NCBI GenBank assembly: GCA_017651625.1 | Contig: JAGCCP010000038.1 | Coordinates: forward strand, 1-32,128 | Source of the DNA: Candidatus Ruminimicrobiellum bubulum | GTDB lineage: Bacteria; Elusimicrobiota; Endomicrobiia; Endomicrobiales; Endomicrobiaceae | Reading direction: 5' to 3' | Length of the DNA: 32,128 bases | Shown: positions 2-10,879 of the stretch, in pieces | Layout: every line of letters starts with the position of its first letter | How positions within the stretch are numbered: position 1 is the first letter of the stretch | Position numbers and translations under genes: made by a program | The notes under the pieces: generated by a model | Database searches by the model: none | Told to the model about the DNA's origin: nothing | The model's input: only the letters and a program-made list of their open reading frames with translations

Positions 2-3000
2 ATGAGTGACGGAGCGGAAGGTAAATTAGTAGTAGAAGACAATTTAACAAACCAAGCAAATATAACACAGAAAGAAATAGAAATAACCGGTGGCGACTTT
101 GAAAATGTAAGAACAAGTTCAATAACAGCAGAAAAGATAACGGTAGCAGACGGTTCATCATTAGTAACAGATGCAGCAGGTTTGGATATAAGTGATAGTA
201 TAACAATAACCGGAGAATCAACATTGTTGAATTTGAAAGATGATGGTGAAGCAGAAATAGATGCAACAATAACCGGAGCAGGAAAGATTGTTAAAGAAGG
301 TGAAGGAACAGTAACATTGAGCGGAGACAATACATATACCGGAACGACAACAATTACAGGTGGTGCAATAGAAATAGGTTCGGCGGACAATATTAGTACA
401 AATACAATATACATGGATGGTGGTAAGTTAATAATAAGTGCAGAAGAAGAAGTAGAGTTAGGAAACGAGATAATCGGAACGGATCATAACGACGTTGATA
501 TAGAAGTAACCGGAGAAAACGCAGTATTAACAGGTGAAATATTAGGAAACGAAAACTTAGTAAAGACAGGAGAAGGAATATTAGATTTACAGATGGATTC
601 TAACTCTTATGCAGGAGATACCGTAATAGGTGAAGGCGGAATAAGAGGAACAACTGAAAATATTAACGGAAAAGTAATAGGCAGCGGAGATGAAAATTCA
701 TCAGTTGAATTCTATGATGAAGATGGTGAAGTAACATTGAACGAATTTGATACAGAAAAGTTCATAGGAACATTTGAAAAAACAGGTGCTGCAACGATGA
801 CCGTAACAAATAACTTCAAAGCGATAAATGCAAATATTACAAATGGAACATTTGTAATAAACAATGATGCTTCAATGGGTGGAAGCGGAAGCACATTTGA
901 GGTGACAGATACTATGAAATTAACCGATTCAATCTTGAAAGGTTATGGTGATATAACAACAGGTGATTTGATAATCGGTAAAAATGCATCTCTTGCTCCG
1001 GGAAATTCAACGACTACATTTAAAGTAAACGGAAACTTAATATTTGAAGATAACGGAAACTATGATGTAGAATTCGGACAGTTCGATATGGATAGTGAAG
1101 GTCATTATAATGATAATACTCAAGTATCGGGAACGACCACAATCGGAGAAGATGCAACAATAACATTGAACAACTTGGAAGGTAAATATTATGTTGCAGA
1201 AACGATAGAATTAATAAATTCCGGAACGTTGGCAGACGGATATGAATATAAAGAAGAAAATGTAACATTTAACGATAACGATGCCAGAGATTTGAGAGTA
1301 GGATATGATACGAGAATATCGACAAGAGTATATACTGAAGGAAATATTTTGAAAATAGATTTACAAAGAAAACAAAGTGAATATTCTGTGGCAACAGACT
1401 TTGACAGAAGTCATAATGAACAAGAAGCGGCAAATACAATAGATGCAGTTTCTACAGGAAAAGGAGGAGATATAACTTTACCGTTGGATGTGATGGAACA
1501 TTTCTACTATTATGAAGATCCTGAAACAGGAGAAACAAATATACCTGCATTAAAAGCAGCACTCAATGATGTTGCAGGTGTAATACATGCAAATGCAACT
1601 AACTTAACATTTTTTAATTCAAAGGCGGAACATGTATACGATAAAATTAAGGAAAGAACAAGTTATGCACCATGCACAAAAATTCACGATAGAATATGGG
1701 GAGAATATTATTACAATACATATAATGTTGACAAAGATGATAACTCACCTAAATTTAATACGACTACAAACGGATTCTTGGTAGGATTTGATATTATATC
1801 ATCGAAAAAACAAGAAGAGGAATCGCTAAACGAAAATAATGAAGACAGAGAATTAAAGATAAGTTATGTAGACGGCAACGAATCAAACGTATATTTTGTT
1901 GATGGTAACGAAGCAGGAATAAACGAATATTTTGTTGATGGAAACTTTGTTTCAAAGAAATATTATGTAAGAGGTAATGAAGACGAACCTATAGAATATT
2001 TTGATGGTAACGAAATGAAAAAGAATGAAAAATATGAACCGGTACCACAAGTATATTTTGTTGATGGTAATGATATAAAGATAAATGAAAAACCTGCAGA
2101 AAAATCTAAAGAATATTATGTAACCGGTAATGAAGAATCTCCGAACGAATACAATATTGATGGTACTGAAAATGATTCGGATATACAATATGAAGCAGAA
2201 GAATCGTCGGAGGAAGGACAATGGATATTGGGAGTTATGGGTGGATATGGTACAAACGAATTAAAACAAAGAAGAGATAAAACATCCATGAATGATATTA
2301 ATTTAGGTTTATATGGCGGGTATGAAAACAATAAATGGTTGCTAAAAGGTATGTTGTTGGGTGGATATGAACAATATACAATCGATAGAACAATAGAGTT
2401 TATGGATAGAACCGCAAACAGTGATCATAACGGTTATAGTGCAGCATTAGATTTAGAGGCAGGATATAAGATAAGTTTGAACAAAAAAGATAGTCAAGCA
2501 AGACATAAGATGTACTTGAAGCCGTTCGTTGGAGTAATCGGAAGCTATATGAATAACGAAAGTTATGAAGAAAAAGGTGCTGAATCACTGAATTTAAAAG
2601 TAGAAAATTATGATGCAGTGACAGCCGAAGCAAGAGCAGGACTTGAAATAAACGGAAAAATAAAGAAGTTCGGTTGGTATGCAAAGGCCGGAGTAAGACA
2701 GTTGTTAACCGATAAACGTAACGAAATTGAAATGTCGTTATTGGACTTTGCAGATGAAACTAAGATGAAGATATGGAGTGCAGAAAATGCACAAACGACA
2801 TTGACCGGTGGAATCGGAGCAGATTATGCTTTGTCTGAAGATTGGACAATATTTGCAAACGGATTAGGAAATTTTGCAGATGTTTCAACTAACTATTATG
2901 CAAATATAGGATTAATGTATAAATTCGGATGCAAACATAATAAAGAAGTTGCAAAGGAAAATAAAGTTGATGAAATTGTTATAGTGGATAATAAAGCAAA

Positions 3001-3523
3001 TGCGGAAGAAGAATTAAGAAAACAATTGGAAGAAAAAGCATTGAGAGAAGCAGAAGAAAGAGAAAAAGCATTAAGAGAAGCTGAAGAAAGGGAAAAGGCA
3101 TTACAGGAACAAATACAAAATTATAAAGCCAAAATTGTAAGCGAACAAGAAGCTCAACAAATGAAAGAAAAAACAATTACAAGTTTGAGAATATCCGGTC
3201 CTACATTCAAGTTTGGAACAACTGAGCTTAGTGAAGAAGGTAAAGGAAAATTGAAAGAAGTTGCACAAGAAATAAAAAATTATCCGGATGCGGACGTATT
3301 AATAGAAGGTCATACAGATAGTATAGGAAGTGATGAAGTTAACCAGAAATTATCTGAACAAAGAGCTTCTTCAGTGGCAACATCGTTAAAGAAAGATTAT
3401 AAGATTACGAACAATATTTCCGTAATCGGTAAAGGTGAAAAAGAGCCGATAGCTTCTAATGAAACAGAAGCCGGCAGAGCGAAAAACAGAAGAGTTGAAA
3501 TTATACTTACAACCGCAGAATAA
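2..3523 (+). CDS. Autotransporter with C-terminal OmpA-like domain (5' partial)
   Basis: The frame is open from the window edge, so the signal peptide and probably more passenger lie upstream. Residues about 1-490 are a repetitive, Gly/Thr/Asn-rich passenger. It contains a passenger-associated repeat (SGDNTYTGTTTITGG, about 103-117), as in beta-helical autotransporters. A barrel start follows (DRIWGEYYYN about 563, NGFLVGFDII about 590). About 140 residues then carry eight Y-x-V-D-G-N-E-like repeats (about 620-725). Aromatic barrel strands resume at GQWILGVMGGYG (about 738) and end near 978 (LMYKFG). A charged coiled coil with tandem REAEEREKAL units (about 1000-1055) leads to an OmpA-like peptidoglycan-binding domain (EGHTDSIGSDEVNQKLSEQR, then NRRVEI). 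Classical autotransporters end at the barrel, so the OmpA tail is unusual. It probably anchors the barrel to the wall. A terminator follows the stop. Confidence 0.85.
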   Translation: MSDGAEGKLVVEDNLTNQANITQKEIEITGGDFENVRTSSITAEKITVADGSSLVTDAAGLDISDSITITGESTLLNLKDDGEAEIDATITGAGKIVKEGEGTVTLSGDNTYTGTTTITGGAIEIGSADNISTNTIYMDGGKLIISAEEEVELGNEIIGTDHNDVDIEVTGENAVLTGEILGNENLVKTGEGILDLQMDSNSYAGDTVIGEGGIRGTTENINGKVIGSGDENSSVEFYDEDGEVTLNEFDTEKFIGTFEKTGAATMTVTNNFKAINANITNGTFVINNDASMGGSGSTFEVTDTMKLTDSILKGYGDITTGDLIIGKNASLAPGNSTTTFKVNGNLIFEDNGNYDVEFGQFDMDSEGHYNDNTQVSGTTTIGEDATITLNNLEGKYYVAETIELINSGTLADGYEYKEENVTFNDNDARDLRVGYDTRISTRVYTEGNILKIDLQRKQSEYSVATDFDRSHNEQEAANTIDAVSTGKGGDITLPLDVMEHFYYYEDPETGETNIPALKAALNDVAGVIHANATNLTFFNSKAEHVYDKIKERTSYAPCTKIHDRIWGEYYYNTYNVDKDDNSPKFNTTTNGFLVGFDIISSKKQEEESLNENNEDRELKISYVDGNESNVYFVDGNEAGINEYFVDGNFVSKKYYVRGNEDEPIEYFDGNEMKKNEKYEPVPQVYFVDGNDIKINEKPAEKSKEYYVTGNEESPNEYNIDGTENDSDIQYEAEESSEEGQWILGVMGGYGTNELKQRRDKTSMNDINLGLYGGYENNKWLLKGMLLGGYEQYTIDRTIEFMDRTANSDHNGYSAALDLEAGYKISLNKKDSQARHKMYLKPFVGVIGSYMNNESYEEKGAESLNLKVENYDAVTAEARAGLEINGKIKKFGWYAKAGVRQLLTDKRNEIEMSLLDFADETKMKIWSAENAQTTLTGGIGADYALSEDWTIFANGLGNFADVSTNYYANIGLMYKFGCKHNKEVAKENKVDEIVIVDNKANAEEELRKQLEEKALREAEEREKALREAEEREKALQEQIQNYKAKIVSEQEAQQMKEKTITSLRISGPTFKFGTTELSEEGKGKLKEVAQEIKNYPDADVLIEGHTDSIGSDEVNQKLSEQRASSVATSLKKDYKITNNISVIGKGEKEPIASNETEAGRAKNRRVEIILTTAE
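1865..2175 (+). repeat. Coding repeat: eight Y-x-V-D-G-N-E-like units
   Basis: The translated region holds YVDGNE, YFVDGNE, YFVDGN, YYVRGNE, YFDGNE, YFVDGND, YYVTGNE and YNIDGTE. They are separated by 5-14 polar, Glu/Lys-rich residues. The DNA words (for example gttgatggtaacgaa) also repeat, which suggests expansion by duplication. The array interrupts the autotransporter barrel between its second and third predicted strands. Confidence 0.8.
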
Positions 3524-3573: not shown

Positions 3574-3731
3574 ATTTCAAAAATTACTAATTACTAATTT
3601 CCAATTGTTTTTGGTGGTTGTTAACAACTTGTGGATAACTTTTGTTTTTAATCTGTATTTACCGAGTGAATAGGGGGTAAAACAGTGGCGGTTGATAACT
3701 GTTTTACTTGTTATTAAAGTAAAAAAAGTTG
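3574..3731. other. Non-coding AT-rich stretch with one DnaA-box-like site
   Basis: No credible gene is visible. The stretch contains a near-repeat of attactaatt, a palindrome TTGTTAACAA, and a perfect match to the DnaA box consensus TTATCCACA on the minus strand (3630-3638). A second, poorer match lies near 3693. One good box is not enough to call an origin. Confidence 0.4.
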
Positions 3732-3760
3732 TTGACAAGTATCCAATCAGCAGTTATACT
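3732..3760 (+). promoter_or_regulatory. Near-consensus sigma-70 promoter for the small RNA
   Basis: TTGACA (3732-3737), a 17-nt spacer, then TATACT (3755-3760). The predicted start, 7 nt downstream, is G3767, which is exactly the first base of the long stem of the RNA that follows. Confidence 0.85.
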
Positions 3761-3766
3761 TACATT

Positions 3767-3842
3767 GCCCTTGGTGATGTAGTAACAAGTAAAACTTGTG
3801 GTACGGACTGCCATAACTGTCCCTTTCACCAAGGGCTTTTTA
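3767..3842 (+). ncRNA. Probable 76-nt structured small RNA
   Basis: A near-consensus promoter predicts transcription from G3767. The 5' end GCCCTTGGTGA (3767-3777) pairs perfectly over 11 bp with TCACCAAGGGC (3826-3836), and a T-run follows. The closing stem is therefore also an intrinsic terminator. Between the arms are two small hairpins: ACAAGT-aaa-ACTTGT (3784-3798) and GGAC...GTCC (3804-3821). This gives a three-way junction. GGTA and TGCC could pair alternatively. I see no SRP RNA, tmRNA, RNase P or 6S signature. An open frame (3692-3886) crosses it, but it would have to start upstream of the promoter. Function unknown; it looks like a free-standing RNA rather than a leader, because the next gene is on the opposite strand. 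Confidence 0.7.
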
Positions 3843-3850
3843 TTTGCATA

Positions 3851-3876
3851 AAAAAAGCACCTTTCGGTGCTTTTTT
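3851..3876. terminator. Bidirectional intrinsic terminator
   Basis: AAAAAAGCACC, loop tttc, GGTGCTTTTTT: an 11-bp stem with an A-run on one side and a T-run on the other. It can stop transcripts from the small RNA (+) and from glnA (-), which converge here. Confidence 0.85.
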
Positions 3877-4002: not shown

Positions 4003-5331
4003 TTAGTAGTTAACTAAATATTCATCAATTTCCCATTGATGAACTTTTGTTCTGTAAGCATCCCACTCATCAATTTTAGACTTTGTATAAAGATTAAAAG
4101 CATGATCTCCCAAAGTTTGTTTGATAAGTTCACTTTTTTGCATTGCTTTAACTGCATTTATTAAATTGTGCGGTAAATTTTCTATACCTGCTTTATCTCT
4201 TTCTTCTTTTGTCATTTGATAAATATTTCTGTCAACTGCAGGTTTTATTTTCATATTCTTTTTTATACCGTCGATTCCTGCTGCCAAACAAGATGCTAAT
4301 AAGAAATAAGGATTTGCCGAAGGATCCGGATTTCTTAATTCTATTCTGGTAGAAGCACCTCTTGCCGCGGGTATTCTTACCAAAGGACTTCTGTTTCTTG
4401 CAGACCAAGCAATATAAACAGGAGCTTCATATCCCGGAACCAATCTCTTATAAGAGTTTACAAGCGGATTGGAAATTGCAGAGAAAGATTTTATGTGATA
4501 CATCAACCCCGCAATATATTTATATGCTATTTTTGAAAGTCCCAATTTATCTTTTTCGTCATAAAAAGCATTTTTGCCATTTTTAAATAACGATTGGTTT
4601 ATGTGCATACCGGAACCGCAAATACCGAATATCGGTTTCGGCATAAATGTTGCATGTAGTCCATGTTTTTGTGCTATGGTTTTAACAACAAGTTTAAAAG
4701 TGTTTATGTTATCTGCGGTTTTTAAAGCATCCGCATATTTAAAATCTATTTCGTGTTGGCCTCTTGCAACTTCGTGGTGTGCCGCTTCTATTTCAAAACC
4801 CATATCTTCAAGAGTTAAGCACATTTCTTTTCTTGCACTTTCACCTAAATCTATAGGAGCAAGATCAAAGTATCCTGCAGCGTCATGAGTTTTCGTTGTA
4901 GGTTTTCCCTGTTCGTCTGTTAAAAATAAAAAGAATTCAAGTTCGGAACCTACATTAAATGTATAACCTAACTTTGCGGCATTTTTTAAACTTCTTTTTA
5001 AAATATTTCTCGGACAACCTTCAAAAGGTTTTCCGTCGGGAGTATAAATGTCACAAATTAATCTTGCAACTTTGCCTTCTTCCTGTTTCCATGGGAATAT
5101 TACAAATGTGTCGGGATCGGGATGTAAGTACATGTCACTTTCTTCGATTCTTGCAAAACCTTCAATAGAAGAACCGTCGAACATGCACTTATTATCTAAT
5201 GCTTTTTCGATTTGTGTTGCTGTTATTGCAACATTTTTAAGTTGACCGAAAATATCGGTAAACTGCAATCTGATAAATTTTACATCTTGTTCTTTAATGA
5301 TTTTAATAACGTCTTGTTTAGTATATCCCAT
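4003..5331 (-). CDS. glnA: Glutamine synthetase type I (alpha-like)
   Basis: Makes glutamine from glutamate, ammonia and ATP; cytoplasmic dodecamer in this family. The 442-residue length suits the alpha branch of GSI. Visible signatures are [15 protein letters not shown] (about 52-66), the Glu/His-rich metal region [13 protein letters not shown] (about 184-196), [10 protein letters not shown] (ATP site) and NRSPLVRIP with [19 protein letters not shown]. The C-terminal part lacks the NLYxLPPE adenylylation-site sequence of the beta type, so control by adenylylation is unlikely. The start is supported by AAGGAG 6 nt upstream. It is monocistronic, with its own promoter and the terminator pair beyond 3880. 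Confidence 0.97.
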
Positions 5332-6986: not shown

Positions 6987-7020
6987 AATATATATATTCT
7001 ATCAATTTTAAAATGAAAAG

Positions 7021-7066
7021 GGAAAACGGATGCAGTGTTTGTTGGCGAACAACCGCATCCGTTTTC
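7021..7066 (-). terminator. Strong hairpin, probable terminator of the feo/porin transcript
   Basis: A 12-bp perfect stem (GAAAACGGATGC with GCATCCGTTTTC) has an inner GTTG/CAAC stem. On the minus strand it is followed by a pyrimidine-rich, T-containing tract. It lies between the porin stop (7253) and the hydrogenase start (6986). Confidence 0.65.
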
Positions 7067-7106
7067 TTCTGTGGAGAAAGTAAATTCTCGTCAAGACTAT
7101 ACAACA

Positions 7107-8673: not shown

Positions 8674-8710
8674 ACTACCTCCAACTGCTTTTTCTTGAAG
8701 GATAGCGGAC

Positions 8711-8775
8711 TAGATGTATAGAGAAACGGAAAAAGCAAAAAAAGATTGTAGTTCTCCATACATCTATACATCGCT
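8711..8775. repeat. Inverted repeat behind feoB, octamer family
   Basis: AGATGTATAGAGAA (8712-8725) and TTCTCCATACATCT (8752-8765) are inverted copies with one mismatch. On the minus strand it begins about 6 nt after the feoB stop. The units GATGTATA and GATGTATG keep the 8-nt period seen at 31019-31042 and in the elements at 7107 and 14077. Confidence 0.6.
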
Positions 8776-8776
8776 C

Positions 8777-10879
8777 CTAGAATCCCAGGAGTTTTCCGCC
8801 CTGATAAACAATGAACGATAACAAATATCCCAAAACGGTCGTCCAAGCAAAAAGTATTATCAGCCATTTTAATCTTGAACCGGCTTCTCTATAGAACACC
8901 GCTATCGCAACTATACAAGGAACATAAATTAAACAGAACATTAAAAATGCTACGGATTTTAACGGACTCCAATCCGGATCGGAAGCAATTTTATCTGCTA
9001 AAGAACCTACTGCTTCTTCATCTTCAACATCTGTTTCACCCATGGAATAAATTGTACCCAACGTACTTACCACAACTTCTTTTGCTGCAAGACCTGCAAT
9101 TAGAGCTATACCCATTTTACCGTCAAAACCGATAGGTTTTATTACAGGTTCTATGAAATGTCCTAATCTTCCGATATAACTTTGATCCATTTGTGCTGCT
9201 GCAACTTCTTCTTCCGAAACTTCGCCTAACTTTTCTTCATCTACTTTAGGGAATGTTAAACCTGCCCAAATAAGAACAGACATTAACAATATAATTGTTC
9301 CGGCTTTTTTAATATACAACCAACCTCTTTCCCACATTTTAAGTAAAAGACCTTTTATTGTAGGAACTCTGTAAGGGGGAAGTTCCATAACAAAATAGCC
9401 CGGTTCACCTTTAAACAATGTTTTCTTAAATACCCATGCGGAAAATAGTGCTATAACTACACTTAATGCATAAAATATGAACATTGTGTTTGCCGCTTGT
9501 GTTGAATTCTTGCTAAAGAATGCCGCTATAAAAAGTGCAAATATAGGAAGTTTTGCACCGCATATCATAAACGGTGTAACAAGAAGTGTAATAATTCTGT
9601 CTTTGGGATTATCTATTGTTCTTGATGCCATCATAGCAGGAACAGCGCAACCGTTAGTTGCAATCAAAAGTGAAGCAAACGATTTTCCGTGCAACCCGAA
9701 CTTTCTCATAACCCTGTCCATAATAAACACTGCTCTTGCCATATATCCTGTATCTTCAAAAAATGCTATGGCAAAGAACATACATATAATTTGCGGAAAG
9801 AATCCCAAAACTCCGCCAACACCGGCGATTATACCGTCTACTATTAATGATTGAAAAACTCCTTCAGGAATTACACCTGTTGCAAAATCAGAAAGCCAAC
9901 CGATACCGGCTTCAAACCAACCTACAATAGGTTCGGATACCGTAAATGCAAATTTAAAAATAATGTACATTACGAGCAAAAATATAGGTACTGACCAAAT
10001 TTTGTTTAAAACAATTTTATCTATTGTTTCCGTAAAATCTTTTTTTGCGGACTTTGATTTTGACAAAACGTCACTGACAACTATTTTTATCCAATCATAA
10101 ATTTTGTCTGCAAAAACAGCTTCAAGATTTTCGTTATGCAAATTGAAGATAGCCTTATTACTTTTTTCTACCTGTTCGATTATTTTTGAAGAAACAGGGG
10201 ATTTTTTAATTTTTTCCAAAGCATAACTTTCTTTTTTTATTAACTCTACAGCCAAAAAGTTAACAGGATACTTTAATACAAGATTTACATCTTCCGATAT
10301 AATCTGACAAATAGTATCTTTTTCTTTATTAATTTCTTTTCCGTAATCTATTGAAACGGATTTTATTGTTTTTTTCTTACTTAGAACATCTGTTACAACT
10401 TTTAATAATTCTTCTGTTCCTTTGTTTTTACTTGCGACTATAGGAACAGCAACTACATTATATTTTTCTTCCAATTTTTTATAATCTATTTTTTGACCTT
10501 TGTTTTCCAAAATATCGGTCATGTTCATTGCAATGATAACAGGGATTTTTAATTCCGATAACTGTGCATACAAATAAAGATTTCTTTCAAGGTTTGAAGA
10601 ATCTACAACATCTATTACAAGCTCCGGCTTTTCTTCAATTAACACATTTCTTGCTACGATTTCATCTTCCGAACTTGCCGATAAACCGTAAATACCGGGC
10701 AAATCTATAATTTGAAGTTCATAACCGTTTTTTGTTACAAATGCTTCTTTTTTTTCTACGGTAACACCGGGATAATTTCCTACATGTTGTCTTAACCCCG
10801 TTATATTGTTAAACAAACTTGATTTTCCACAGTTTGGGTTACCGGCCAAACATATTTTTACTTTTTTTAAACTTTCCAC
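8777..10879 (-). CDS. feoB: Ferrous iron transporter FeoB
   Basis: Inner-membrane Fe(II) uptake protein with an N-terminal G domain. Visible are G1 GNPNCGKS (13-20), G2 Thr40 in YPGVT, G3 DLPG (59-62) and G4 NMTD (119-122). A helical spacer leads to the membrane domain with the conserved segments GVLGFFPQI, FFEDTGYMARAVFIMDR, NGCAVPAMMASRT and FMICGAKLPIF, and a C-terminal helix bundle. The 700-residue length is typical. The start is GTG, with AGAGG 11 nt upstream overlapping the end of feoA; the family N-terminus fits this start. The gap to feoA is only 6 nt, so the genes form an operon. Confidence 0.97.
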   Translation of the reverse strand: MESLKKVKICLAGNPNCGKSSLFNNITGLRQHVGNYPGVTVEKKEAFVTKNGYELQIIDLPGIYGLSASSEDEIVARNVLIEEKPELVIDVVDSSNLERNLYLYAQLSELKIPVIIAMNMTDILENKGQKIDYKKLEEKYNVVAVPIVASKNKGTEELLKVVTDVLSKKKTIKSVSIDYGKEINKEKDTICQIISEDVNLVLKYPVNFLAVELIKKESYALEKIKKSPVSSKIIEQVEKSNKAIFNLHNENLEAVFADKIYDWIKIVVSDVLSKSKSAKKDFTETIDKIVLNKIWSVPIFLLVMYIIFKFAFTVSEPIVGWFEAGIGWLSDFATGVIPEGVFQSLIVDGIIAGVGGVLGFFPQIICMFFAIAFFEDTGYMARAVFIMDRVMRKFGLHGKSFASLLIATNGCAVPAMMASRTIDNPKDRIITLLVTPFMICGAKLPIFALFIAAFFSKNSTQAANTMFIFYALSVVIALFSAWVFKKTLFKGEPGYFVMELPPYRVPTIKGLLLKMWERGWLYIKKAGTIILLMSVLIWAGLTFPKVDEEKLGEVSEEEVAAAQMDQSYIGRLGHFIEPVIKPIGFDGKMGIALIAGLAAKEVVVSTLGTIYSMGETDVEDEEAVGSLADKIASDPDWSPLKSVAFLMFCLIYVPCIVAIAVFYREAGSRLKWLIILFAWTTVLGYLLSFIVYQGGKLLGF

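Follow-up and report, generated by a model that had tools for sequence, protein, structure and literature searches.

A probable clade-restricted small RNA gene in Candidatus Ruminimicrobiellum whose closing stem is predicted to double as the terminator

The trans-acting intergenic small RNAs (sRNAs) of the Escherichia coli RyhB and Spot 42 class are transcribed from their own sigma-70 promoters, are 70 to 150 nt in length, and end in a Rho-independent terminator. The staphylococcal Rsa RNAs, from Gram-positive bacteria, are Hfq-independent and strongly structured, and use an invariant unpaired loop as the seed. We analyzed a 32,128-nt stretch of DNA from Candidatus Ruminimicrobiellum bubulum (the window) that contains an intergenic unit comparable to both of these systems. 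As in the RyhB and Spot 42 class, the unit has its own sigma-70 type promoter, an intrinsic terminator, no downstream gene on its strand, and a short phylogenetic range; it differs from that class in that Hfq was not detected, and in that the terminator is not a separate 3′ hairpin but is formed by the stem that closes the entire RNA. It is like the Rsa RNAs in having a strong structure that presents an invariant unpaired loop, with Hfq proposed here not to be needed, but there is no sequence relation to them and no C-rich UCCC loop, the loop being CCAUAA inside UGCCAUAACU. In our interpretation, the unit is very probably a genuine sRNA gene that is new, is confined to one clade, and belongs to a known kind. 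A full-text search of open papers found none that combined Elusimicrobiota with small RNA and non-coding RNA.

The putative promoter (positions 3732 to 3760, plus strand) consists of TTGACA at 3732 to 3737, a 17-nt spacer, and TATACT at 3755 to 3760, giving 11 matches to the 12 consensus positions; only three sites with at least 11 matches were found on the two strands of the window. Six bases past the −10 hexamer begins GCCCTTGGTGA (3767 to 3777), which pairs with TCACCAAGGGC (3826 to 3836) at 11 of 11 positions without a mismatch, and TTTTT comes next. The sRNA is therefore assigned to the plus strand, because both the promoter and the T-run face that direction, with a predicted length of about 76 nt (within 3767 to 3843), a start at 3767, and an end in the T-run at 3837 to 3841. 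The 3′ arm of the closing stem and the T-run together (3826 to 3841) make up the intrinsic terminator, the sequence of which is invariant in the six genomes that carry the RNA. The GC content of the RNA is 44%, compared to 28% upstream, 25% downstream, and 32% in the whole window. A sequence-only reading of the locus had proposed a near-consensus promoter with its predicted start at the first base of the 11-bp stem, a terminator formed by the 3′ arm of that stem and the T-run, and an RNA more GC-rich than its surroundings, and all of these proposals are borne out.

The predicted folding energy of the 80-nt strand was −31.1 kcal/mol, as opposed to −16.6 ± 2.9 kcal/mol for 200 dinucleotide shuffles, none of which was as low (z = −4.98). 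Among 8012 segments of 80 nt in the window, it was found that equally strong folds were present only in a tRNA region and in one other hairpin, at 7017 to 7096. The base-pair probability of the closing stem was 1.0 in all sequences; that of hairpin 2 was 0.71 to 0.98, and the probability that the CCAUAA loop is unpaired was 0.78 to 1.0. Hairpin 2, GGAC-UGCCAUAACU-GUCC (3803 to 3820, plus strand), is wholly invariant in the six genomes and is the proposed functional site. In hairpin 1 (ACAAG-UAAAA-CUUGU, 3786 to 3800, plus strand), the 5-bp core is kept in the six genomes and the loop is variable, whereas the outer GUA/UAC pairs are broken in two of the six. The two inner hairpins of the three-way junction proposed earlier are thus retained as hairpin 2 and the ACAAG/CUUGU helix, but the exact junction is not fixed because of these broken outer pairs. 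Compensating changes in the closing stem (3767-3777/3826-3836), which had been suggested as a check, gave little information: all 11 pairs are kept, the only change being one-sided (U-G for C-G in two genomes), and the number of two-sided compensatory changes in the RNA stems was zero in the six genomes, among which the sequence hardly varies. Because the RNA barely varies, support from covariation is almost nil, and with no two-sided compensation, the fold is therefore neither proved nor disproved by covariation.

The distribution of the RNA was evaluated by blastn and by a covariance model made from the six copies. Homologues were found in 6 of the 11 genomes of Ca. Ruminimicrobiellum (Elusimicrobiota, rumen), with covariance-model scores of 90 to 110 bits; this genus is described as rumen Endomicrobiaceae that are possibly associated with ciliates (PMC11257099). 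None was found in the other 66 genomes of the family, nor in the other 330 genomes of the phylum when 341 were searched with the covariance model under strict filters. When the exact core pattern was scanned against 84,980 species, only Elusimicrobiota rumen metagenome-assembled genomes matched, one of them named Candidatus Ruminimicrobiellum ovillum, and there were zero matches in viral contigs. Three extra core matches with two mismatches within the family (G016, G046, and G083) are about the number expected by chance and were rejected: none folds like the RNA, and two are coding sequence resembling glyA. Genome G007 has two copies of the RNA on two contigs with the same neighbours, and the second copy is probably a strain duplicate. 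The five genomes of the genus with no match are mostly incomplete, fragmented assemblies. The contig with the closest glnA stops inside that gene in one genome (G004), and in another (G009) the contig stops 135 nt past glnA. Absence from these five genomes is not firm and may in part be due to assembly gaps.

Conservation was evaluated in an alignment of the six genomes that covered about 260 bp of upstream and 90 bp of downstream sequence. The flanks do not align, and between them lie sharp conserved islands, of which TTGTTGACAA includes the −35 hexamer and TATACTT includes the −10 hexamer. All six genomes agree at both hexamers and over 38 consecutive columns of the RNA (about 40); in window positions, RNA invariance extends from about 3796 to 3841, broken only by the loss of one T in one genome. 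The promoter spacer (17 nt) is variable, and is 18 nt long in one genome. A working promoter would be expected to show this combination of fixed hexamers and a variable spacer. Of the 122 fourfold degenerate sites of glnA in these six genomes, 42 (34%) are invariant, and so the probability that a 38-column invariant run would arise by neutral chance is about 1e-18, assuming independent sites. By this comparative measure, the RNA sequence was shown to be under strong purifying selection.

The gene contexts of the six loci were also compared. In four genomes, the unit lies between an autotransporter-OmpA gene and a convergent glnA gene; in G001, its neighbours are glnA and a uracil-5-methyltransferase family gene that is transcribed in the direction away from the unit; and in G007, they are an autotransporter-OmpA gene and a convergent gene for an MgsA-type AAA+ ATPase. 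In the window, glnA (with glutamine synthetase domains) occupies 4003 to 5331 and is convergent to the RNA, in agreement with the earlier statement that no gene on the same strand lies downstream. The promoter, RNA, and terminator stay together beside these three different gene pairs, which argues that the unit is an independent gene. The original span of 3732 to 3876 holds as one unit for the promoter and the RNA to about 3843, but not for the bidirectional terminator-like hairpin AAAAAAGCACC-TTTC-GGTGCTTTTTT at 3849 to 3876. This hairpin is present beside glnA in four genomes but is missing or has been replaced in G001 and G007; because it does not travel with the unit, we regard it as separate from the RNA, and it is probably the glnA terminator. 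The proposal of a lineage-specific sRNA is supported by occurrence in one genus only, by the footprint over the hexamers and the RNA, and by a unit that remains intact beside changing neighbours. Regarding the neighbours themselves, the gene at 2 to 3523 of the window encodes an autotransporter with a PATR repeat, a beta-domain, and then a C-terminal OmpA domain, and its middle part contains degenerate repeats of the YFVDGNE... type that vary strongly in length between relatives. G000 has two same-type glutamine synthetase genes, on contigs C25 and C33, whose proteins are 84% identical.

A search of 4227 Rfam families at gathering and relaxed thresholds gave no credible match, and none above the gathering threshold, consistent with the initial view that the RNA belongs to no known family. 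The best sub-threshold matches on the RNA strand were SprD, Atu_C8, and ncr1015, with 20 to 24 bits compared to gathering scores of 50 to 100. These families are likewise small AT-rich RNAs with a terminator hairpin; the matches are due to chance, and most are driven by the 3849-3876 hairpin and flank.

Two conserved elements lie upstream of the promoter. The first, ACTTGTGGATAACTTT (3627 to 3642), has 13 consecutive invariant columns in the six genomes, seen in the footprint as the island ACTTGTGGATAA(C)TTTT within a poorly conserved region, and includes TTATCCACA (minus strand, 3630 to 3638), a perfect DnaA-box sequence about 93 nt upstream of the −35. The second, GTTGATAAC ... GTTATTAAA (3690 to 3720, plus strand), immediately precedes the promoter and forms an imperfect inverted repeat in which TTGTTATTAAA and GATAA are invariant; together with an A-run, these form the island at 3690 to 3728. 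This repeat is a possible activator site or UP element. This genome has further copies of the box TTATCCACA: one lies just upstream of dnaA, accompanied by two other DnaA-type boxes, and two are in the intergenic sequence that follows a ParB-like gene on that same contig (C40). In G000:C40 coordinates, three DnaA boxes upstream of dnaA and two in the ParB-like/helicase-like intergenic region were noted at about 38440-38590 and 50595-50650. The latter region is flanked by a ParB-like C terminus and an ATPase or helicase-like gene (names read from sequence). This DnaA-box region of C40 is likely to be oriC, and an origin at the sRNA locus was rejected, the DnaA-box cluster being at dnaA and after the ParB-like gene on C40. 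The pattern TTGTGGATAA occurs 13 times genome-wide compared to 27 times for a reversed control pattern, and so it is not enriched; besides the sRNA site, three copies are clearly intergenic (one at dnaA and two after the ParB-like gene). Given the lack of enrichment and the intergenic copies at the sRNA, dnaA, and ParB-like sites, the sRNA may be under DnaA control, but this is unproven. The fuller proposal, of a new sRNA family in an Hfq-less and possibly ciliate-associated lineage that is controlled by DnaA through the box and weaker look-alikes extending to the −35, seems to us rather improbable; if it were true, the level of the sRNA would follow the initiation of replication.

These upstream sequences also bear on a reading in which the role of the conserved unit lies at the DNA level, such as in DnaA binding or titration, with the RNA incidental. 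The perfect box and the further conserved blocks fit such a role, but conservation is strongest in the RNA and the promoter hexamers and not in the box, and there is one perfect box here whereas the cluster is at dnaA and after the ParB-like gene on another contig, which makes this reading very unlikely. A position between convergent genes and an end in an intrinsic terminator might suggest a mere terminator or a chance fold; this is refuted by the footprint, in which the hexamers and the RNA are invariant in six genomes and the spacer and flanks are not, and we give it almost no credence. If the RNA were a riboswitch or a premature-termination leader that regulates a gene downstream of it, this would account for a closing stem that doubles as a terminator, as in some leader aptamers. 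However, the gene that follows is convergent, and thus on the other strand, at all six loci, which largely refutes this possibility and agrees with the earlier judgement that the RNA is not an ordinary leader; moreover, no Rfam riboswitch matched, even at the relaxed threshold, and the competing inner pairing that was examined is improbable (P up to 0.2). We consider a leader highly improbable. It is extremely improbable that the locus encodes a small protein. A 64-codon frame from a TTG crosses the RNA in the window, and a 17-codon GTG frame starts inside it, but the relatives differ by 1-nt indels that put all frames through the RNA out of register, which rules out a conserved open frame; in addition, invariance is as great at third codon positions as at the other positions, and no ribosome-binding site was seen. 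The homologues keep the RNA sequence and not an open frame.

As for the mode of action, we lean toward an independent regulatory RNA that acts in trans by Hfq-free pairing of the CCAUAA loop with mRNA, with expression tuned by factors. The 11-bp closing stem would cap and stabilize the RNA and present the invariant hairpin GGAC-UGCCAUAACU-GUCC, the unpaired CCAUAA loop would pair in trans with one or more mRNAs without Hfq, and expression would be tuned by factors that bind the conserved upstream blocks, including the block with the DnaA-box sequence. A role in cis is unlikely because the neighbouring genes differ among genomes and the one downstream is convergent in every case. Hfq was detected in 0 of 21 genomes, including that of the window, and CsrA in 0 of 13 genomes (the same genome and relatives); the positive controls worked in both searches. 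The first of these results speaks against an Hfq-dependent sRNA, and the second, with the presence of one GGA-type motif only, against a CsrA-sequestering RNA of the CsrB or RsmY type: the RNA has a single ACGGAC, partly within a stem, with multiple GGA loops absent. Since neither Hfq nor CsrA was found, an Hfq-independent RNA sealed by its terminator stem is the most economical reading. Targets were searched for with the complement of the loop hairpin, as the 11-mer AGTTATGGCAG and as a 16-mer with two mismatches, and this search found no start-codon site common to the sRNA-bearing genomes. Therefore, we can only infer pairing with mRNA, and binding to a protein is a serious competing possibility. 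Action as a protein decoy or scaffold would fit equally well with a stem and loop that together are almost wholly invariant over about 40 nt, and it is consistent with the failure to find Hfq or a conserved pairing target; on the other side, there is no candidate protein, and CsrA, the best-known decoy target, was not detected, with only one GGA-type motif in the RNA. We regard protein binding as possible though doubtful. Whichever applies, this RNA is well bounded, strongly conserved, and present in genomes in which no Hfq was detected, which makes it a clean candidate for Hfq-free post-transcriptional regulation in a possibly ciliate-associated lineage, and the conserved DnaA box supplies a specific and testable hypothesis for its control.

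A flavodoxin-like gene with GGAGG-N7-ATGGCAG at an internal ATG was rejected as a target, because this arrangement occurs both in genomes that carry the sRNA and in genomes that lack it, and is not seen in that of the window. In several genomes of the genus, the flavodoxin-like genes (L071, L081, L065, L077, L068, and L079) encode an N-terminal membrane segment, and all six have an internal Shine-Dalgarno-like GGAGG followed by ATGGCA, resembling a second start that would give a soluble form.

Two other structured stretches were seen in the window. A strong hairpin (GGGAAAACGGATGCAG...CGCATCCGTTTTCTTC) at 7020 to 7070, between an iron-sulfur hydrogenase-like gene and the next gene, is terminator-like on both strands (z = −3.9 and −4.9). 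On the minus strand, positions 8705 to 8800, beside the 3′ end of a feoB-like gene, are highly structured (z = −5.7), with a stem of the GATGTATAGATG...CATCTATACATC type.
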